Shown here piece after piece: positions 623-17,147 of a DNA stretch of 64,000 nucleotides (position 1 is the first letter of the stretch; each line of letters begins with the position of its first letter). Below the pieces are notes generated by a model. That model worked only from the letters and a program-made list of their open reading frames with translations. It ran no database searches and was not told the origin of the DNA. Made by a program: the position numbers and the translations under genes. This stretch comes from Streptomyces sp. XD-27. Its GTDB lineage: Bacteria; Actinomycetota; Actinomycetes; Streptomycetales; Streptomycetaceae. The DNA is taken from the NCBI RefSeq assembly GCF_030553055.1, contig NZ_CP130713.1, forward strand, positions 3,658,001 to 3,722,000, given 5' to 3'.

Positions 623-1108
623 ATGGTGAGAGTCGAGCGGCTTCGGGCCGACCACGCGGCGCCCCTGCTGGCCTTCGAGCGGGAGAACCGCGCGTACTTC
701 GCGCGTTCCATACCGGACCGGGGGGACGCGTACTTCGCGGAGTTCGACGCCCGCCACCGGGCCCTGCTCGCGGAGCAGGACGCCGGTGTGATCCACTTCC
801 ACGTCGTCATGGACGAGGCCGGGGAGCTGATCGGCCGGGCCAACCTCGTGGACGTCGCGGAGGGCGCCGCCGAACTCGGCTACCGGATCGCCGAGCGCGC
901 CGCCGGCCGGGGCGTCGCGACGGCCGCGGTCCGGGAGATGTGCCGGCTGGCCGCCGCGTCGTACGGGCTGTCGGCGCTGACGGCGGCCACCACCCGCGAC
1001 AATCCGGCGTCGATGGCGGTGCTCGCACGCACCGGCTTCACCGCGGTCGGGGACATCCGGCTCGACGGTCGGCCCGGTGTCCGGTACGAGCGGCGACTCG
1101 TCGCGTAG
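623..1108 (+). CDS. GNAT family N-acetyltransferase (RimJ/RimL-like)
   Basis: Acetyl-CoA-dependent N-acetyltransferase of 161 residues. The core follows the RimJ/RimL-type pattern: ELGYRIAERAAGRGVAT is the acetyl-CoA pyrophosphate loop region, followed by an AAASYGLSALTAAT strand and the usual DNPASMAVLARTGF helix-turn. I chose the ATG at 623; an in-frame ATG at 611 adds only four residues (MLRH) and has no better ribosome site. It probably shares a transcript with the FMN reductase. It may acetylate a protein N-terminus, an amino acid or a small amine; nothing in the context decides this. Confidence 0.86.
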   Translation: MVRVERLRADHAAPLLAFERENRAYFARSIPDRGDAYFAEFDARHRALLAEQDAGVIHFHVVMDEAGELIGRANLVDVAEGAAELGYRIAERAAGRGVATAAVREMCRLAAASYGLSALTAATTRDNPASMAVLARTGFTAVGDIRLDGRPGVRYERRLVA

Positions 1109-1136
1109 CGCCTGAGCGCCATCAGGCTGAGGGCCA

Positions 1137-1880
1137 TCAGCCCGTACGGCGCCGGAACAGCGCCCCGGACAGCGCGACCCCGATCAGCGCAAGGCCGCCG
1201 CACCACGCCAGCGCGAGGGTCGCGCTGTCGCCGACGGGCCGGTCGAGCAGCAGCGCGCGCAGGGACTCGATGACCGGGGTGACGGGCTGGTGGTCGGCGA
1301 AACCGTGCAGCCAGTCCGGCATCGTCTCGATCGGCACGAACGCGCTGCTCGGGTAGGGCAGGAACATCATCAGGAAGGTGAAGCCGCCCGCCGCCTCGGG
1401 TGTCCTGGCGATCAGCCCGAAGGCCGCGGAGAGCCACGAGATCGCGAGGATGAACATCAGCAGGACGCCGCCCGCCGCCGGCCAGGCGGCGGGCGAGGCG
1501 TCCGGCCGGAAGCCGATGAGGAAGGCGACCCCGAGGACCAGGACGGTGGAGACGGCGTTGCGGATGACGCTGGAGACGACGTGTCCGGTGAGGATCGCCG
1601 TGCCGCCGACGTCCATGGACCGGAACCGGTCGATGACGCCGCCGGACATGTCCTGGCTGACGCTGACGGCGGTGGTGGCCGAGCCGTAGCCCGCGCACAG
1701 CAGCAGCACGCCGGGCACCACGTAGGTGACGTAGTCCGTGCCCGTCTCGATGGCGCCGCCGAAGAAGTAGACGAAGACGAGCATCAGCATGACGGGCAGC
1801 ATGAGCGCGGTGAGCAGGGCGTCGAGGTTGCGCCTGCTGAGCCGGACGCTCCGGCCGATCATGGTCATGGCGTCAGACAT
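1137..1880 (-). CDS. ABC-2 type transporter permease (DrrB-like)
   Basis: Membrane component of a drug or lipid exporter, 247 residues, with about six hydrophobic segments and the ABC-2 layout of DrrB-type permeases (N-terminal segment around LLTALMLPVMLMLVFVYFFG, then VVPGVLLLCAGYG and SQDMSGGVIDRFRSM). The start ATG overlaps the stop of the upstream ATP-binding gene by 8 bases, so the two are translationally coupled and form one transporter. The divergent TetR gene beyond the ATPase probably controls the pair. The exported compound is unknown; DrrAB relatives export daunorubicin, but such pairs are common in Streptomyces and often orphan. Confidence 0.9.
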   Translation of the reverse strand: MSDAMTMIGRSVRLSRRNLDALLTALMLPVMLMLVFVYFFGGAIETGTDYVTYVVPGVLLLCAGYGSATTAVSVSQDMSGGVIDRFRSMDVGGTAILTGHVVSSVIRNAVSTVLVLGVAFLIGFRPDASPAAWPAAGGVLLMFILAISWLSAAFGLIARTPEAAGGFTFLMMFLPYPSSAFVPIETMPDWLHGFADHQPVTPVIESLRALLLDRPVGDSATLALAWCGGLALIGVALSGALFRRRTG

Positions 1881-2889
1881 GGAGGTCCTCCTTTGACGAA
1901 GACGAAGCGGGAGAAGCGGGAGACGGTGCGGTGGCGGCGGTCCCGGTGAGGGCCAGGAAGACGTCGTCGAGGGTGGCGCTGTGCAGCGTGAACCGGTCGA
2001 GCGCGCGCCCGCCGGGGTCGACCTCCGCCAGCAGCGCCCGCACGTGGGCGGCGCTCCCGTCGGTCGCCAGCCCCAGCGTCAGCCGCTCGGCGTCGTCCCG
2101 TACGGCCCGCAGGCCGAGGTCGCGGGCGGCGCGCGCGTAGTCGGCGGCACTGGCGAAGACCAGGTCCAGACGGTGGCCCGCCACGCTCCGCTTGAGGTCG
2201 GCGGCGGTGCCCTCGGCGACCACCCGGCCGCCGTCGACCACCGCGATCCGGTCCGCGAGCTGGTCCGCCTCCTCCAGGTACTGGGTGGTGAGGAAGACCG
2301 TGACGCCGTCGCCGACCAGGCCCCTGACGGCCTCCCACATCGCCTGGCGGCTGCGCGGGTCCAGCCCGGTCGTCGGCTCGTCCAGGAAGATGACCTCGGG
2401 GCGGACCACCAGCCCCGCGGCGATGTCCAGGCGGCGGCGCATCCCGCCGGAGTACGTGCCCGCCGTCCGGCCGCCGGCGGCCACCAGGTCGAACTGCTCC
2501 AGGAGTTCCTCGGCGCGGCGGTGCGCGTCCCGCCGGGACAGCCCGCGCAGACGGCCCATCATGCGCAGGTTCTCCACCCCGGTCTGCATCTCGTCGACCG
2601 CCGCGTACTGGCCGGTGAGGCTGATGGCGCGGCGCACGGCGGCGCGCTCCCGTACGACGTCGTGCCCGGCGACCCGGGCGGTGCCGCGGTCCGGCTCGCT
2701 GAGCGTGGCCAGGATCCGGACGGTGGTGGTCTTGCCCGCGCCGTTGGGGCCGAGCAGCGCGAAGACGCTGCCGCGCGCCACCCGCAGATCGACTCCGGTC
2801 AGGACGCGCACCGCCCCGTAGGACTTGTGCAGGCCGTGCGCCTCGACGGCCGCATCGCGGGCCGGTTCGTGGGCCGCTTCGTGGGTCAT
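1873..2889 (-). CDS. ABC transporter ATP-binding protein (DrrA-like, daunorubicin resistance family)
   Basis: ATPase subunit of the exporter completed by the overlapping permease gene. Walker A is GPNGAGKTTTVRIL, the signature is YSGGMRRRLDIAAG, Walker B is VIFLDEPTTGLD, and the DrrA-type region QTGVENLRMMGRLRGLSRRDA is present. The C-terminal 100 residues match the DrrA extension. I place the start at 2889, where the ATG has a GGGGAGCGGGGGC leader on the minus strand. A start at 2925 is open but would place the operator palindrome inside the coding region. Regulation: two direct operator copies lie just upstream, shared with the divergent TetR gene. Confidence 0.92.
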   Translation of the reverse strand: MTHEAAHEPARDAAVEAHGLHKSYGAVRVLTGVDLRVARGSVFALLGPNGAGKTTTVRILATLSEPDRGTARVAGHDVVRERAAVRRAISLTGQYAAVDEMQTGVENLRMMGRLRGLSRRDAHRRAEELLEQFDLVAAGGRTAGTYSGGMRRRLDIAAGLVVRPEVIFLDEPTTGLDPRSRQAMWEAVRGLVGDGVTVFLTTQYLEEADQLADRIAVVDGGRVVAEGTAADLKRSVAGHRLDLVFASAADYARAARDLGLRAVRDDAERLTLGLATDGSAAHVRALLAEVDPGGRALDRFTLHSATLDDVFLALTGTAATAPSPASPASSSSKEDLHV

Positions 2890-2914
2890 GCCCCCGCTCC
2901 CCTCACACTCTTCT

Positions 2915-2950
2915 GCGTATGCCATACGCTTTACTGCGTAAGGTATACAC
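2915..2950. promoter_or_regulatory. Tandem TetR-type operator between exporter and regulator
   Basis: A perfect 15-bp palindrome, GCGTATGCCATACGC (2915-2929), is followed 21 bp downstream by a second, less perfect copy, GCGTAAGGTATACAC (2936-2950). The 21-bp phase is two helical turns, so two repressor dimers would sit on one face of the DNA. The site lies between the divergent exporter and TetR genes and probably controls both. Confidence 0.75.
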
Positions 2951-2976
2951 AGAACTAGGATGGGCGGTCAACCGGA

Positions 2977-3747
2977 ATGAGGGCGGAGGCACGCGAGGCC
3001 ATGGGACACGACAGCGGCACGGGCCTGCCGCCGAGCATCGAAGCGGCCTGGGGCCTGCGCGAACGCCCCACCAAGGGCCCCAAGCGCGGGCTGAGCCTGG
3101 ACCGGATCGTGGCGGGCGCGGTGCGGGTCGCCGCCGCCGAGGGCCTCCCGGCGGTCTCCATGGGCCGGGTCGCCAAGGAGCTCGGCGTCTCCACGATGTC
3201 GCTCTACCGCTATGTGGCCGCCAAGGACGAACTGCTCGCCCTCATGGCCGACGCCGCGTACGGCACGCCCCCGGAGCCGCGGCCGGACCTGGGCTGGCGG
3301 CACGAACTGACCCGCTGGGCCCATGAGATGCGCGCCGCGCTGCTCGACCACCCCTGGGCCCTGCGGATCCCGATCAGTGGCCCGCCCATCACCCCGCACC
3401 AACTCGCGTGGTTCGAGCGGGCGCTCGCCGCCCTGGCCGGCACCCGCCTCGGCGAGGGCGAGAAGGTCTCCGTGGTGATGCTGGTCAGCGGGCATGTGAA
3501 GGCCGACGCGACCCTGTACGCGGAGTTCGGCGCGGCCTTGCGGGCGGCGGACTCCTCCCCGCAGGACTTCATGCGCTCCTACGGCCGCACCCTGTCCCGA
3601 CTGACGGACGCCGAACGCTTCCCCGCCCTGACCGCGGCCCTCGCCGCGGGCGCCGTCGACAAGCCGGACGGCCCGGACGACGAGTTCGTCTTCGGGCTGG
3701 ACCGGATCCTCGACGGCATCGAGGTCCTGATGCGCGACCGCGCCTGA
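2977..3747 (+). CDS. TetR/AcrR family transcriptional regulator
   Basis: Repressor of up to 256 residues. The N-terminal helix-turn-helix is clear: LDRIVAGAVRVAAAEGLPAV then MGRVAKELGVSTMSLYRYVAAKDELLALM, a textbook TetR DNA-binding domain starting about residue 45. The rest is an all-alpha ligand/dimer domain of the TetR_C class, with helices around DHPWALRIPISGPPITPHQLAWFE. Start is 2977 or the in-frame ATG at 3001, which has a purine-rich GGGCGGAG leader. It is divergent from the DrrAB-type exporter with the paired operator between them, so it most likely represses the exporter and itself until a ligand binds. Confidence 0.9.
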   Translation: MRAEAREAMGHDSGTGLPPSIEAAWGLRERPTKGPKRGLSLDRIVAGAVRVAAAEGLPAVSMGRVAKELGVSTMSLYRYVAAKDELLALMADAAYGTPPEPRPDLGWRHELTRWAHEMRAALLDHPWALRIPISGPPITPHQLAWFERALAALAGTRLGEGEKVSVVMLVSGHVKADATLYAEFGAALRAADSSPQDFMRSYGRTLSRLTDAERFPALTAALAAGAVDKPDGPDDEFVFGLDRILDGIEVLMRDRA

Positions 3748-3858
3748 CGCCCGGGCCGGGCGCGACGTGCGGCGGCGCGACGTGCGGCCGCGCCTGACGC
3801 CCGACCGGGCGTGACGTGCGGCCGCGCCTGACGCCCGACCGGGCGTGACGTGCGGCCG
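3741..3858. repeat. 34-bp tandem repeat with internal hairpins
   Basis: Two exact 34-bp units (3791-3824 and 3825-3858) follow a degenerate longer copy (3741-3790) that begins in the last codons of the TetR gene. Each unit contains the inverted repeat ACGCCCG/CGGGCGT separated by two bases, so transcripts can form a row of small hairpins. It sits between convergent genes and may act as a terminator. No spacer separates the units. Confidence 0.7.
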
Positions 3859-3897
3859 CAGCTGAGCCCCGCCGCGCGGTCCCGGACCGCCTGCGCC

Positions 3898-4305
3898 TCA
3901 GCCCAGCTCGTGGCCGGTCGTCGCGTCGACGTGCTCCGGTACGGGGTCGTGCCGGTCGCCCACCGTCGACGTGCCCGACGGCTCGAACAGCAGCAGCGCC
4001 GCCCCGTCGGCGGACGACGGCTTGTGCTCCGTACCGCGCGGAACGACGTACACCGACCCGCGCGGCAGGACGACCTCGCGCTCGTCCGGATCCCGCAGGG
4101 CGATCGTCAGCTCGCCGTCGAGGACCAGGAAGAACTCGTCGGTGGTGTCGTGGGCGTGCCACAGGTGCTCGCCCGCCACCTTGGCGATCCGTACGTCGTA
4201 GTCGTTCACGCGGGTCACGATCCGGGGGCTCCACAGGGCCTCGAAGCTCGCCAGCGCGGTCTGGAGGTCGATCGGTTCGCTGTTCACAGGGCGTTCGCTG
4301 TTCAT
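3898..4305 (-). CDS. Cupin domain-containing protein
   Basis: Small single-domain cupin of 135 residues (128 if the in-frame ATG at 4284 is used). Cupin motif 1 reads HLWHAHDTTDEFFLVLDGE, with the two His and Glu that hold the metal. Motif 2 is GSVYVVPRGTEHKP with the third His. Cupins of this size act as isomerases, dioxygenases or sensors; nothing identifies the substrate. It is divergent from the GlxA-type regulator, with only about 50 bp between, so that regulator is a plausible controller. Confidence 0.87.
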   Translation of the reverse strand: MNSERPVNSEPIDLQTALASFEALWSPRIVTRVNDYDVRIAKVAGEHLWHAHDTTDEFFLVLDGELTIALRDPDEREVVLPRGSVYVVPRGTEHKPSSADGAALLLFEPSGTSTVGDRHDPVPEHVDATTGHELG

Positions 4306-4357
4306 ACGGCGATCATGCGCGGTGACGGGACCGCCGCGTGAGTGCTAGGAATCGCAT

Positions 4358-5341
4358 ATGCCGCAAGATTCCTCGCAGGCGGGCGCGTGCCGTCCGCCGC
4401 ACCGGGTGGCCGTGATCGTCGGCGAGGGCTCCAACCCCTTCGAACTGGGCGTGGCCACCGAGATATTCGGGCTGCGCCGCCCCGAGCTGGGCATCCCCTG
4501 GTACGACTTCGCCCTCTGCGCCGCCTCCCCGGCGGTCGCCGTGCACGCCGGGTTCTTCACCCTCTCCGGCGTCGCCGGACTCGACGCGGCCGACGCCGCC
4601 GACACCGTGATCGTGCCGAACCGCCCCGATCCGCACGTCCCCGCCGACCCGGCGGTACTGGCCGCGATCCGACGCGCGGCGCTGCGCGGTGCCCGGCTGG
4701 TGAGCTTCTGCACCGGTGCGTTCACGCTCGCGGCGGCGGGCGTCCTCGACGGGCGGCGGGCCACCACGCACTGGCGCTGGGCGGAGTCCTTCGCCGCCCG
4801 CCATCCCGCCGTACGCCTCGAACCGGACGTGCTGTTCGTCGAGGACGGCCAGGTGCTGACGGCGGCGGGCAGCGCGGCAGCGCTCGACCTCAGCCTGCAT
4901 CTCGTACGCCGCGACCACGGCGCCGAGGCGGCCAACGCGGTCAGCCGCCGACTGGTGTTCGCCGCCCACCGGGACGGCGGGCAGCGGCAGTTCGTCGAGC
5001 GCCCCGTCCCCGAGGTCCCGGACGAGTCCCTCGCCCCCGTACTGGACTGGGTACGGGAGCGGCTCGACCGGCCGCTGACGGTGCCGGACCTCGCGGACCG
5101 CGCGGCGGTCAGCGCCGCCACGCTGCACCGGCGGTTCCGCGCCCAGTTGGGCACCACCCCGCTGGCGTGGCTCACCGGCGAGCGGGTCGCGCTGGCCTGC
5201 CGACTGATGGAACGCGGGGAGCAGCGGCTGGACCGGGTGGCCCGGCTCAGCGGCCTCGGCACGGCGGCGAACCTGCGGACGCAGCTGCGTCGCAGGACGG
5301 GGCTGAGCCCGACGGCGTACCGGGCGCGGTTCGGCCCGTGA
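4358..5341 (+). CDS. GlxA family transcriptional regulator (DJ-1/PfpI domain + AraC HTH)
   Basis: 327-residue activator with two parts. The N-terminal DJ-1/PfpI-like domain (about residues 10-180) carries the nucleophile-elbow motif FCTGAFTLAAAGVLDGRRATTHW. The C-terminal AraC domain (about 225-325) has both helix-turn-helix units, DLADRAAVSAATLHRRFRAQ and RVARLSGLGTAANLRTQLRR, ending in the usual GLSPTAYRARF. The ATG is preceded by AGTGCTAGGAATCGCAT rather than a strong ribosome site. Divergent from the cupin gene. Family members regulate amine, nicotinate or arginine catabolism or stress genes; the effector here is unknown. Confidence 0.93.
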   Translation: MPQDSSQAGACRPPHRVAVIVGEGSNPFELGVATEIFGLRRPELGIPWYDFALCAASPAVAVHAGFFTLSGVAGLDAADAADTVIVPNRPDPHVPADPAVLAAIRRAALRGARLVSFCTGAFTLAAAGVLDGRRATTHWRWAESFAARHPAVRLEPDVLFVEDGQVLTAAGSAAALDLSLHLVRRDHGAEAANAVSRRLVFAAHRDGGQRQFVERPVPEVPDESLAPVLDWVRERLDRPLTVPDLADRAAVSAATLHRRFRAQLGTTPLAWLTGERVALACRLMERGEQRLDRVARLSGLGTAANLRTQLRRRTGLSPTAYRARFGP

Positions 5342-7822: not shown

Positions 7823-9319
7823 TCAGGGCTGCCGCGCCGCCGCGTCCCGTACTCGCCGTCCCGGTACGAGAACGAGCGCGACCACCGCCGCGACGGCCAG
7901 CAACCCGCCCGCGGCGCCCAGCGCCGCACCGTATCCGTCCGCGAGGTCGGGCCGCGGATCGCCGCCGTGCCCGCCCCCGGCGGCCCCGTGCGCACCGGAC
8001 GCCGTCGCCGCCAGGGTGTCCAGGACCGCCAGGCCGATCGAACCGCCCACCTGGCGTGAGCTGTTGACCAGTCCGGAGGCCATGCCCGCCTCGCGCGGGT
8101 CGACGCCCGCCGTGGCCGCCGTGCCCAGCGGTACGAAGCACATCCCGATGCCGGTGCTCGCCACCAGCGACGGGCCGAGGATCGCGCCCGCGAAGCCGGC
8201 CTGCGCGGCGAACGCGAGGCCGAACCAGGCGAATCCGGCCGCGCCGACCAGACCGCCGGCCACCATCAGGCCGCGCAGCCCGACCCGGGCGACGGTACGG
8301 GAGGCGATCAGCGTCCCGGCCACGATGCCCAGGCAGAACGGCAGGAACGCTACGCCGGCCGCCGCGGTTCCGTAGCCGAGCACCTGGTTCAGGTACAGCG
8401 AGGTGAAGTAGAAGGCGGCGAACTGCCCGGAGCACAGCAGCATCATGAACAGGTTGGCGCCGAGGACGGGTCGGCGGGCCAGCAGGCCCAGGCGCAGCAG
8501 CGGTTCACGCGCCCGGCGTTCGACGGCCGCGAAGGCGGCGAGGAGCACGGCCGCCGCGCCGAGGGTGAGCACGGTGGTGGCCGAGCCCCACGGCACGCTG
8601 TGGGTCCGTACGACGCCGAGCACCAGCACGCCCGCCCCGGCGGTCACCAGCACCGCCCCGGCGAGGTCGAGCCGGGGCGCGGTCCGCTCCCGGCGGTCGG
8701 GTGCCAGCCGGGCCGCGAGGACCAGCGCGAACACCACGATCGGCACGTTGACGAGCATGACCGCCCGCCAGCTCAGCCATTCGGTCAGCACTCCGCCCGC
8801 CAGCACCCCCACGGCGCCGCCGGCGGCCGCCGTGGCGCCCCACAGCCCCAGCGCCCGGGAGAGCGCGGGCCCCGGCGGGAAACCGGTGGTGAGCAGGGCC
8901 AGCGCGACGGGGGTCAGGGCGGCCGCCCCGGCACCCTGGACGGCGCGGGCGGCGATGAGCGCACCGGGCGACTGCACCAGCCCGCCCACCAGACTGGCCA
9001 GGCCGAACAGTGTCAGCCCGGTCAGCAGGGTGCGGCGGCGGCCGACGATGTCGCCGAGCCTGCCGCCGAGCATCATCAGCCCGCCGAAGGTGAGCGCGTA
9101 GGCGTTGACGACCCAGGTCAGGCCCTCGCCGTCGAAGCCGAGTGCCGTGCGGACGTCGGGTAGCGCGACGTTCACCACGGAGGCGTCGAGCGCGACCATG
9201 AACTGCACGGTCAGGACGACGGCGAGCAGCCGCCCGCCGAGGGTCGGCGCGGCGGCGCCCGGCCGGGGCGGCGCGGGGGCCGTCCCGTGCCCGGCCGCCG
9301 ACGCCACGGGGCTGTCCAT
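7823..9319 (-). CDS. MFS transporter, DHA2 family (EmrB/QacA type drug exporter)
   Basis: 498-residue proton-coupled exporter with about 14 membrane segments. The DHA2 motifs are plain: VALDASVVNVALPDVRTALG in helix 1 (motif D1), GRLGDIVGRRRTLLTG between helices 2 and 3 (motif A), and RAVQGAGAAALTPVAL after it. The ATG at 9319 has a GAGAGGAAG leader. It lies 62 bp downstream of the cupin gene on the same strand, so the two probably form an operon under the divergent TetR regulator. Likely substrate: a hydrophobic drug, dye or self-made metabolite. Confidence 0.93.
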   Translation of the reverse strand: MDSPVASAAGHGTAPAPPRPGAAAPTLGGRLLAVVLTVQFMVALDASVVNVALPDVRTALGFDGEGLTWVVNAYALTFGGLMMLGGRLGDIVGRRRTLLTGLTLFGLASLVGGLVQSPGALIAARAVQGAGAAALTPVALALLTTGFPPGPALSRALGLWGATAAAGGAVGVLAGGVLTEWLSWRAVMLVNVPIVVFALVLAARLAPDRRERTAPRLDLAGAVLVTAGAGVLVLGVVRTHSVPWGSATTVLTLGAAAVLLAAFAAVERRAREPLLRLGLLARRPVLGANLFMMLLCSGQFAAFYFTSLYLNQVLGYGTAAAGVAFLPFCLGIVAGTLIASRTVARVGLRGLMVAGGLVGAAGFAWFGLAFAAQAGFAGAILGPSLVASTGIGMCFVPLGTAATAGVDPREAGMASGLVNSSRQVGGSIGLAVLDTLAATASGAHGAAGGGHGGDPRPDLADGYGAALGAAGGLLAVAAVVALVLVPGRRVRDAAARQP

Positions 9320-12402: not shown

Positions 12403-12870
12403 TCATGCGCCCCGCTCCGCACCGGCCCCGTCCGCGTCGGTGGCCGTACGGCCGACGAGGCGCTCGTAGCGCTGCCTGGCGGCCTGCGGGGTACGGAGCC
12501 CGAGGCCGAAGGCGATCTCCGGCCAGGTCATGCCGCGGCCCCGCGCCATCTGGAGGAGCCCGGCCTCCAGCTCGTCCATCTCCCCACGAGCCAGTGGCAC
12601 AAGACTCAAGGCGGCGGTGACATCGGACCGGTCCACCTCCGGCTCACCGTCCTGGAGTTGCGCGGCCCCACTGAGCAGGAACGACACGAGCCTGATGGCC
12701 TCGTGCGGCCCGAGGACGGAGGGATGGACCTGCCGCCGCCGCTGCTCGTCGGTGGCCGCGTGCCGCTCGGCGATCCGGAACAGGGAGGTGTACACGCGCT
12801 CCGCCCGGGCCTGGTCCGGGTGCGGGGGCGTGAAGGGGTCGGTGGACCGATCGGGAGTCGAGGCTGCCAT
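12403..12870 (-). CDS. HTH DNA-binding protein, probable regulator of the YcaO locus
   Basis: 155 residues. The N-terminal half is charged and helical (QARAERVYTSLFRIAERHAATDEQRRRQ). The C-terminal part (about 105-140) has a likely helix-turn-helix, GMTWPEIAFGLGLRTPQAARQRYERL, of a type seen in small streptomycete DNA-binding proteins. Start is the ATG at 12870; longer open frames upstream have no support. It is divergent from the peptide-YcaO genes, with a 15-bp palindrome between, so it may control that operon. The partner or ligand is unknown. Confidence 0.75.
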   Translation of the reverse strand: MAASTPDRSTDPFTPPHPDQARAERVYTSLFRIAERHAATDEQRRRQVHPSVLGPHEAIRLVSFLLSGAAQLQDGEPEVDRSDVTAALSLVPLARGEMDELEAGLLQMARGRGMTWPEIAFGLGLRTPQAARQRYERLVGRTATDADGAGAERGA

Positions 12871-12916
12871 GCGACCAGGCTGCCCTGGCACACGACATGG
12901 CATCAACTCAATATTG

Positions 12917-12931
12917 TGAACAATCTGTTCA
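12917..12931. promoter_or_regulatory. Perfect palindrome TGAACA-ATC-TGTTCA
   Basis: A 6+3+6 inverted repeat set in an unusually AT-rich patch (about 12900-12935) between the divergent HTH gene and the peptide-YcaO operon. It is a plausible operator or promoter element. It differs from the actinobacterial SOS box, where GAAC and GTTC are four bases apart; here they are five apart. Confidence 0.6.
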
Positions 12932-13053
12932 TCCGGCGCCCATCGAATGCATCGGTGCGCCCGTGACGCGCCCGGCCTGCCCGCGACGGCCTCCCTAGCG
13001 TGGTGGGAGCGGTCGCCCTGACCGTGTTCCGACAAGATTGGAGGGGATCCACG

Positions 13054-13185
13054 ATGGGTGACGCCAGTGGCGACATGGCGGTCGCGCGGCACCCCGAGGG
13101 CACGGAACTGACGCCCGCGGAAGCGGCCCTGGCCGCTGAGCTGGAGCAGACTCCCACGGCCGATGCGGCGGACGAGGCCGTCTGA
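13054..13185 (+). CDS. Small acidic peptide, putative RiPP precursor
   Basis: 43 residues, MGDASGDMAVARHPEGTELT then PAEAALAAELEQTPTADAADEAV. The ATG has a good GGAGGGG leader, seven bases away. It is acidic and helical in the middle, with no Cys and no signal peptide. The stop is two bases before the next ATG (13188), so it is coupled to what follows, a YcaO enzyme gene. Small peptides directly before YcaO genes are often substrates whose backbone amides are converted to azolines, thioamides or amidines. The C-terminal TPTADAADEAV would be the core; it offers only Thr as a cyclisable residue, so an amidine or thioamide product is easier to imagine. No family recognised. Confidence 0.6.
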   Translation: MGDASGDMAVARHPEGTELTPAEAALAAELEQTPTADAADEAV

Positions 13186-13297
13186 CCATGCGTACGGGCG
13201 GGAGGGGTGACCGCACACCGGGGCCCAAGGGCGCGGTGAAGGCGCCCTTCCCGCCCCCGCCCCCGCCCCCACGGAGTCCACGCGGGCCGTCGCGACC

Positions 13298-14545
13298 TTG
13301 GAGGAATCGGCCCGAGGTCTCGGCACGCGGCCGCGCTGGCGTCGCCAGGCGCGCCTCGACAGCGTCCTGTCTGTGTGGGGGTGCGAGCTCGTCGACACGG
13401 CAGGCGTGTCCGTGGCGGCCGGTACGGGGAAGGCGCGTGCGGACACCGAGGCGCGGGCCCGGGCGCTCGGCGAAGCCCTGGAGCGCCTGCTGGCCGGGCC
13501 GGCCGGCCTCGACCGGGCGGCCGTGCACTTCACCGCCGCCGGCCGGCTGGCCGCCGGTGTGCTGGCCGGCGAGGCGAGCGCCCCGCTGCTGGCACAGCAC
13601 CCGGACCGGGAGCTCGCCTGCCTCACCTACCGGTCCCTCCACGCGGACGAGGACGAGGATGAGGACGCGAACGAGGTCAGCATCCCCCTGTTCCTCGGTG
13701 CTCCTTGGTACGCGGGCCCGGACGGGCAGGCCCATCGGGACGCGCTGGGCGACCGCACCGACTACGGGGCCCTGTCGAGGTACGCCGTCGGTTCGGGATA
13801 CGGCCTGGGGCCCACACGCACCCGGGCGACCGTCCACGCGCTGCTGGAGACGATCGAGCGGGACGCGTGCTCGCTGCTGACCCTCCGCATGTTCCTCGCC
13901 GGCCGACCGCCCGTCGTCCTCGACCCCGCGACCCTGCCCGACGGGCTTGCCGCTCTCCACCGCTGCGCCGAACGCGAGGCATCGGCCCGCGTCCATCTCG
14001 TCGACGCCACCGGCGATCTCGGCGTCCCCACCGTCCTGGCCTACAGCCCGCCCTCCCCTCCGAAGCCCTACGTACGCGGCCAGGCCGCCGCTCTCAGCCG
14101 GCACGACGCCGTCGCGGGGGCGCTCACCGAGCACCTTGAATCGGCCACCGCCCGCCGCCGCGCACCGGCCCGGCCGGTCCCGCTGACGGTCCTCGAGCCC
14201 TACCCGGCGCTGCACCGCTGCGGGCGGTTCGACCTCACCGACGCCCTCCGACAGGCCCGGAGCGCACCGTTCCGCGACCACCCCGCGCCCGACGCGCCCG
14301 CGGACCAACTCACCGAGCTCCTCGTCCGCTTGCGCGCCGGAGGATTCACCGCCTACCAACGCCGCATCGCCCGACTCCCCGGCGGCGCCGACGCCGTCCA
14401 CACCGTCGTACCCGGCCTGGAGCGGTTCTTCGCCGTCGTCAAAGGCGCTCTCATCCTGCCGGGCCCGCGCGGGCGGGCGGTGACCCGTCTCACGTGCGAC
14501 CACGTCAGCGCCGGGCCAGGTGAACCGGCGGGCGCAGAAAACTGA
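13298..14545 (+). CDS. YcaO-domain protein, putative RiPP cyclodehydratase/amide-activating enzyme
   Basis: About 415 residues from a TTG. YcaO enzymes phosphorylate peptide amides with ATP. Family hallmarks: GKARADTEARARALGEALER (residues 44-63), GYGLGPTRTRATVHALLETI then ERDA (to 190), ALTEHLESATARR (275-287, where most have Glu-x-x-Gln-x-Arg), and TVVPGLERFF (369-378). No C-terminal PxPxP motif. The start is uncertain: the frame is open back to 13211 but holds no ATG or GTG. The natural ATG (13188, two bases after the peptide stop) is in another frame, joined across the CCCCCG-repeat tract at 13248-13271. One missing C there would fuse them. An Asp/Glu run lies near residue 118. Confidence 0.8.
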   Translation: MEESARGLGTRPRWRRQARLDSVLSVWGCELVDTAGVSVAAGTGKARADTEARARALGEALERLLAGPAGLDRAAVHFTAAGRLAAGVLAGEASAPLLAQHPDRELACLTYRSLHADEDEDEDANEVSIPLFLGAPWYAGPDGQAHRDALGDRTDYGALSRYAVGSGYGLGPTRTRATVHALLETIERDACSLLTLRMFLAGRPPVVLDPATLPDGLAALHRCAEREASARVHLVDATGDLGVPTVLAYSPPSPPKPYVRGQAAALSRHDAVAGALTEHLESATARRRAPARPVPLTVLEPYPALHRCGRFDLTDALRQARSAPFRDHPAPDAPADQLTELLVRLRAGGFTAYQRRIARLPGGADAVHTVVPGLERFFAVVKGALILPGPRGRAVTRLTCDHVSAGPGEPAGAEN

Positions 14546-14587
14546 ACAAACGTCCACACCCCCTACTTCCTGACGTATGTTGAACGG

Positions 14588-14740
14588 GTGAGCTCACCTG
14601 ACCTGGAGCCCAGACCTCCCTCCACGCTGGCCGACAGAATAGACAGCGTGCTGTCAGTGCTGATCATCATCGGCATCGCCTACGGGTTGTACTGGCTGGC
14701 CTCAAGCCTCGCCTCGTCCTACATAGGGTTCTTCACCTAA
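14588..14740 (+). CDS. Small single-pass membrane protein of the YcaO locus
   Basis: 50 residues from a GTG. The N-terminus is soluble and Pro-rich (SSPDLEPRPPSTLADRID), followed by one membrane segment, SVLSVLIIIGIAYGLYWLAS, and a short tail SSLASSYIGFFT. It begins 42 bases after the YcaO stop and ends seven bases before the stop of the convergent UvrA-like gene. No family recognised. By position it could be an immunity, anchoring or export helper for the YcaO product, or a second peptide substrate. All of this is inference from context. The ribosome site is weak. Confidence 0.55.
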   Translation: MSSPDLEPRPPSTLADRIDSVLSVLIIIGIAYGLYWLASSLASSYIGFFT

Positions 14741-14747
14741 GGCGCCG

Positions 14748-17147
<2,400 letters not shown>

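Follow-up and report, generated by a model that had tools for sequence, protein, structure and literature searches.

Introduction

Bottromycin biosynthesis employs two stand-alone YcaO enzymes, of which BtmE forms an azoline on Cys8. The other, BtmF, closes the bottromycin macroamidine together with BtmI (PMC5103208). According to the same source, Met-Gly-Pro is a poor substrate for endogenous aminopeptidases, and the pathway needs a special peptidase. The bottromycin amidohydrolase is described as removing the follower and making ring closure irreversible (PMC10885120). As of 2021, RiPP amidine rings were known only from bottromycin, klebsazolicin and streptamidine, as stated in the streptamidine study, which itself mined stand-alone actinobacterial YcaOs (PMC8442711). 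Streptamidine (ami) combines a stand-alone actinomycete YcaO with a precursor poor in Cys, Ser and Thr and an amidine product; its core lies inside the precursor, which has motifs A/B with ALV, and amiB, C, E and F are needed (PMC8442711). A survey from 2015 states that peptides with few heterocyclisable residues escape its own precursor search (PMC4603692).

The unit described here belongs to Streptomyces sp. XD-27, whose genome is a single contig of 7.55 Mb. Coordinates refer to the window, the whole stretch of 64,000 nucleotides that was analysed, unless another locus is named; handles beginning with L and G denote loci and genomes. The unit pairs one short peptide gene with a single YcaO gene. 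It resembles the ring-closing step of bottromycin, yet differs from bottromycin in several features by which membership was tested. The best explanation, whose chances we judge to be about even, is a minimal RiPP unit with kinship to bottromycin, in which a single YcaO, guided by a follower, would make an N-terminal (macro)amidine on Gly1. A first-pass annotation, made from the letters alone, had called the locus a candidate undescribed RiPP system. No description of the family was found in the literature searched, supplements apart (those of PMC8442711 may list such peptides), but the layout is that of bottromycin and hence not new.

Layout of the unit

The ribosome-binding site GGAGGGG (13040..13046, + strand) is the best Shine–Dalgarno match among the in-frame starts of the putative precursor gene (13054..13185, +), which encodes the 43-residue peptide MGDASGDMAVARHPEGTELTPAEAALAAELEQTPTADAADEAV; the short gene with a strong ribosome site noted at first pass is thus present. 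The candidate core GDASGDMAVARHPEGT, with Gly1 first, spans 13057..13104 (+) and is the variable part ahead of a conserved motif, xL[TSA]xxE, which marks the candidate follower ELTPAEAALAAELEQTPTADAADEAV (13105..13182, +). The YcaO gene (13298..14545, +) was likewise called correctly; its product matches PF02624 (E 2e-33), has the YcaO fold in a structural model and groups with bottromycin BtmF in trees (see below).

The start of the YcaO gene is not simple. An ATG does stand at 13188, two bases past the stop of the 43-residue ORF, where the first-pass annotation, allowing for a frameshift, had the YcaO gene begin, but its frame is not that of the YcaO. The latter is open from 13211 to 14545, after a TGA at 13208–13210, and its first ATG, GTG or TTG is the TTG at 13298, TTG being the sole start type. 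From this ATG up to the TTG (13188..13297, +) the frames disagree, and the stretch contains C-rich repeats. Since most of the YcaO relatives extend further upstream in a single open frame, the window frames probably parted in the C-rich stretch, be it by mutation or by sequencing error.

Where bottromycin has two stand-alone YcaOs, the unit has one. The genome contains two YcaOs, 1.04 Mb apart. The other one (L017, 8580–11287) is encoded within an ORF of 821 residues that comes immediately after an 80-codon ORF ending PPPGICICTVGDR, and resembles an ordinary fused azoline cluster. A search for matches to PHROGs gave none.

Relatives and gene pairing

Thirteen YcaO relatives were found, in Streptomyces, one other Streptomycetaceae genus, Saccharopolyspora and Nonomuraea, which makes 14 loci with the window. 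Five of 294 other genomes of the genus carry one, and the GTDB r220 contigs hold a single relative locus, that of Saccharopolyspora aridisoli (L009, 60% identical). A larger draw added two genomes; 10 of its 392 genomes matched, eight with family members (the window's own included) and two with bottromycin BtmF. Three more came from a Streptomycetaceae draw, where the 10 matches among 335 genomes comprise five family members (including the window's own and G172), two BtmF and three weak ones. Two named records, Nonomuraea gerenzanensis and Streptomyces sp. NBC_01707, also have YcaO relatives. In a phylum sample, with few candidates scored per genome, one of 396 genomes matched at E 1e-30, namely the window's own. 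The family count leaves out matches in G791, G968 and G980.

A related short ORF lies upstream of the YcaO in all 14 loci, always with xL[TSA]xxE and at a distance that varies among loci. The number of independent loci is below 14, because L130 and L131 are alike, as are L013 and L014. The pairing of peptide and YcaO is well supported, in agreement with the original suggestion that the two belong together; homologues of the 43-residue peptide, which were to be sought beside related YcaO genes, are present there. That the pairing recurs with quite different peptides in other actinomycetes suggests a simple route to ring-closed peptides. Distant YcaO matches (plasmid hits H3 and H6–H13) occur on plasmids of Mycobacterium ulcerans, Vibrio, Rhizobium, Pantoea and Acinetobacter.

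The precursor peptide

Thirteen of the 14 peptides start with Met-Gly, and the exception, Met-Ser at L134, rules out a strictly invariant Gly2. Among control ORFs of at least 150 codons led by a ribosome site, Gly occupies residue 2 in 3 of 58. The Gly start is the best Shine–Dalgarno match in all nine loci tested, two of which have no other start. Met-Gly ORFs with a ribosome site were found at four of five family YcaO genes versus 2 of 29 other YcaO genes, in a control scan whose narrow pattern missed the L010 peptide; by eye, the two ORFs at other YcaO genes are low-complexity or implausible.

All 14 peptides have 14–19 variable residues ahead of the conserved motif (L102 has two candidate motifs, the first of which was taken for core length). 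This pattern of conservation marks the C-terminal part as a follower, whereas the first-pass annotation had looked for the core in the last third. As read from the alignment, the core is N-terminal and the follower C-terminal, which is the layout of bottromycin: BtmD of G228 also has the Met-Gly start, an N-terminal core and a follower with L[ST]xxE. A low-confidence model of the window peptide has a helix at residues 21–31, with a pLDDT of about 87 in the block.

A leave-one-out profile ranked the right ORF top in its own locus in eight of nine cases, and top among all untrained loci (6,734 small ORFs) in six of nine; L013 and L014 were left out together, and L014 was the failure. With the follower alone the right ORF came out best in three of nine, so this part is only weakly conserved in sequence. 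The likeness to BtmD is architectural, because the family profile does not pick out BtmD; kinship in sequence is therefore not supported by the profile. The cores are unrelated as well, and the peptides of the window, L009, L012 and L014 gave no match to NF033414, whereas BtmD of G228 scores 116 bits.

By simple counts, the peptide genes of the window and L009 differ with a pN of 0.23 and a pS of 0.61 (tail pN 0.45), and those of L013 and L014 with 0.13 and 0.28 overall and 0.15 and 0.19 behind residue 18. With pN below pS in both pairs, the peptide is constrained at the amino-acid level. This bears on whether the short ORF is no substrate but a leader that serves to couple translation of the YcaO or to control it, with the enzyme acting on something else. 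Its position directly upstream of the YcaO would fit such a role; so would its surroundings, in which no dedicated protease or transporter was noticed. Constraint on the amino acids, the Met-Gly start and shared motif around a variable middle, the changing distance to the YcaO and the same layout in BtmD all speak for a substrate, and make a mere leader highly improbable.

The YcaO enzyme

Outside the family, the best match of the window YcaO is BtmF (E 9e-18). Support for the family, the family plus BtmF, and both plus BtmE was 64/76, 89/91 and 100/97 in a tree of 35 YcaOs, 98/93, 97/90 and 99/96 in one of 40, and 93/86, 96/92 and 99/97 in one of 47 rows. In the last, the family forms the sister branch to BtmF (96/92) and lies outside BtmF itself. 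L082 and L083 were dropped from the trees, proteins of more than 520 residues were cut to the last 480, and L130 was cut to its YcaO part. The tree proposed at first pass as a check against non-RiPP enzymes accordingly has the window YcaO adjoining the RiPP enzymes BtmF and BtmE, in trees built without E. coli and archaeal YcaOs. An AlphaFold2 model (pLDDT 87.8) has the YcaO fold, with MJ1094 as best PDB match.

The streptamidine YcaOs of L061, L074 and L081 form a separate branch in the 47-row tree. The HLSATH sequence is present at L074 and L081, and no HLSATH-type core occurs in the unit; together with the separate branch this rules out kinship with streptamidine. What the unit has in common with streptamidine is a stand-alone actinomycete YcaO, a precursor poor in Cys, Ser and Thr and, as predicted here, an amidine product.

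Two peculiarities of the enzyme were noted correctly at first pass. The PxPxP tail is missing from the window YcaO, and the third ATP motif ends in Glu in the window, L009 and L010 (3 of the 14 members), where the other 11 members, BtmF, MJ1094, TruD and LynD have Gln. A connection between this Glu and loss of Cys or Ser from the core fitted the first members but does not hold, as L130, L131 and L102 have Gln and no Cys or Ser at positions 8–10.

A backbone thioamide, which likewise requires no Cys, Ser or Thr in the core, is a quite improbable product. The NCBIfam thioamidation model TIGR03266 does match the YcaO, weakly and far below cut-off, but the TfuA partner of TfuA–YcaO thioamide RiPPs is absent from the genome (0 matches at E 0.001), the kinship of the YcaO is with BtmF, and thioamidation does not call for a near-invariant N-terminal Gly.

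Core composition and accessory genes

The cores and the extra genes vary between loci. Cys or Ser stands at core positions 8–10 in 7 of the 14 peptides and in none of the other seven. Ahead of the follower, Cys, Ser and Thr are all missing from L130 and L131, and L009 has Thr16 only; the window core has Ser4 and Thr16 alone, and Ser4 is missing from L009 and L010. A SagB/ThcOx-type dehydrogenase gene lies near the YcaO at four of the 14 loci, namely L013 (on the opposite strand), L014, L119 and, more distantly, L102.

Such dehydrogenases, along with the YcaO fold, are what the family shares with azoline TOMMs. The YcaOs of the family could thus make azolines from Cys or Ser at positions 8–10, in the way that BtmE modifies Cys8 in bottromycin; the window branch, with Glu in its third motif and its frame problem, would then have diverged or be decaying. 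As an account of the whole family this is unlikely: seven cores have no Cys or Ser at these positions, L009 and L010 share the Glu yet have full open frames, and the sister branch is BtmF, not BtmE. Because L130 and L131 have no azoline residue in the core and L009 has Thr16 only, the product common to the family is unlikely to be an azoline, whereas an amidine on Gly1 is possible as such. The unit also differs from azoline TOMMs in the missing PxPxP tail and in the window-branch cores poor in Cys, Ser and Thr; a Pfam scan of six window ORFs and six relatives' ORFs recognised no C (E1-like) partner protein. The seven cores with Cys or Ser at 8–10 and the four SagB-type loci nevertheless make azole chemistry likely in some members, instead of or in addition to the amidine.

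The window and the 13 relatives were searched (tblastn, E 1e-5) with nine of the bottromycin proteins encoded by G228, BtmF not among them, and the only match was a P450 at L012. From gene order, we take the nine to include the radical SAM methyltransferases, amidohydrolase, alpha/beta hydrolase, M17 peptidase, O-methyltransferase and MFS exporter; BtmG was left out. Genes may be unseen at L011, which stops 318 bases past its YcaO where the contig ends, and at L012, a contig of 7.1 kb.

At L012, a P450 and an O-methyltransferase are present; precursor, YcaO, P450 and O-methyltransferase follow in a row (1082–4831), the richest version of the family seen. L119 (8398–11587) lies on a linear Streptomyces plasmid with a MobF relaxase gene; here the unit is accompanied by a SagB-type gene, and its precursor is annotated only as a hypothetical protein. 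An acetyltransferase-like ORF follows the YcaO in both L130 (5044–6042) and L131 (4869–6113), perhaps by chance.

Proposed mode of action

The peptide would carry its core at the N-terminus and, behind it, a follower that the YcaO would read. The enzyme would activate a backbone amide with ATP, and attack by the free amine of Gly1 would give the N-terminal (macro)amidine. Residue 3 is never Pro (0 of 14), so host methionine aminopeptidase should be able to remove Met and free Gly1; host enzymes may also remove the follower. The peptide as substrate, follower binding, amidine chemistry and ring size are all predictions from comparison of sequences.

In favour of this explanation count the pairing and shared motif at all 14 loci, the Met-Gly start of 13 peptides, the constraint on the peptide, the cores of L130, L131 and L009, the absence of TfuA from the genome and the position of BtmF as best outside match and sister branch. 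Against it count the seven cores with Cys or Ser at positions 8–10 and the four loci with a SagB-type gene; the participation of BtmI in the BtmF reaction (PMC5103208); the amidohydrolase credited with irreversible closure (PMC10885120), for which neither the window nor the surroundings of the relatives gave a match; the peptide profile, which misses BtmD; the Met-Ser start of L134; the support for the family, 93/86 in the largest tree and 64/76 in the first; and TTG as the sole start in the window YcaO frame.

A broader proposal, which we rate somewhat below an even prospect, is a class of one-enzyme follower-guided macroamidine RiPPs, in which a single BtmF-type YcaO, with no help from an amidohydrolase, a special peptidase or a partner protein, would form N-terminal amidine rings on hypervariable cores that can do without Cys, Ser and Thr. 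If this is true, bottromycin would be one complex side branch of a lineage that is simpler and more widespread. A family consisting of hardly more than a precursor and a BtmF-type YcaO, with almost completely different natural cores, makes it testable what a stand-alone YcaO needs for amidine closure, including the requirement for an amidohydrolase and the mode in which the follower is read. It could also yield a compact peptide-cyclising tool.

Neighbouring genes

The first-pass annotation had counted a divergent HTH regulator, a membrane peptide and a perfect palindrome as parts of the locus. All three exist, but the regulator and the membrane peptide lie outside the unit. The divergent ORF (12403–12870) matches a Myb-type HTH weakly, below cut-off; 13 of 100 other Streptomyces have ORFs at least 69% identical to it but no YcaO match, and no such ORF was found beside the 13 YcaO relatives, which rules it out as part of the unit. 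The same holds for the 50-residue single-pass membrane peptide (14588–14740) as an immunity factor or second substrate: it occurs on its own in 4 of 100 other Streptomyces (one weak), none of them with a YcaO match, and is absent beside the 13 relatives. The palindrome, TGAACA-ATC-TGTTCA, lies at 12917–12931, where by our own estimate chance alone would give about 0.4–0.5 such repeats; no palindrome with arms of at least 8 was found. The membrane peptide is a family of its own. By eye, a UvrA-like ABC protein (14748–17147, − strand) adjoins the unit, and an MFS-like transporter (7823–9319, −) lies 3.7 kb upstream of it.
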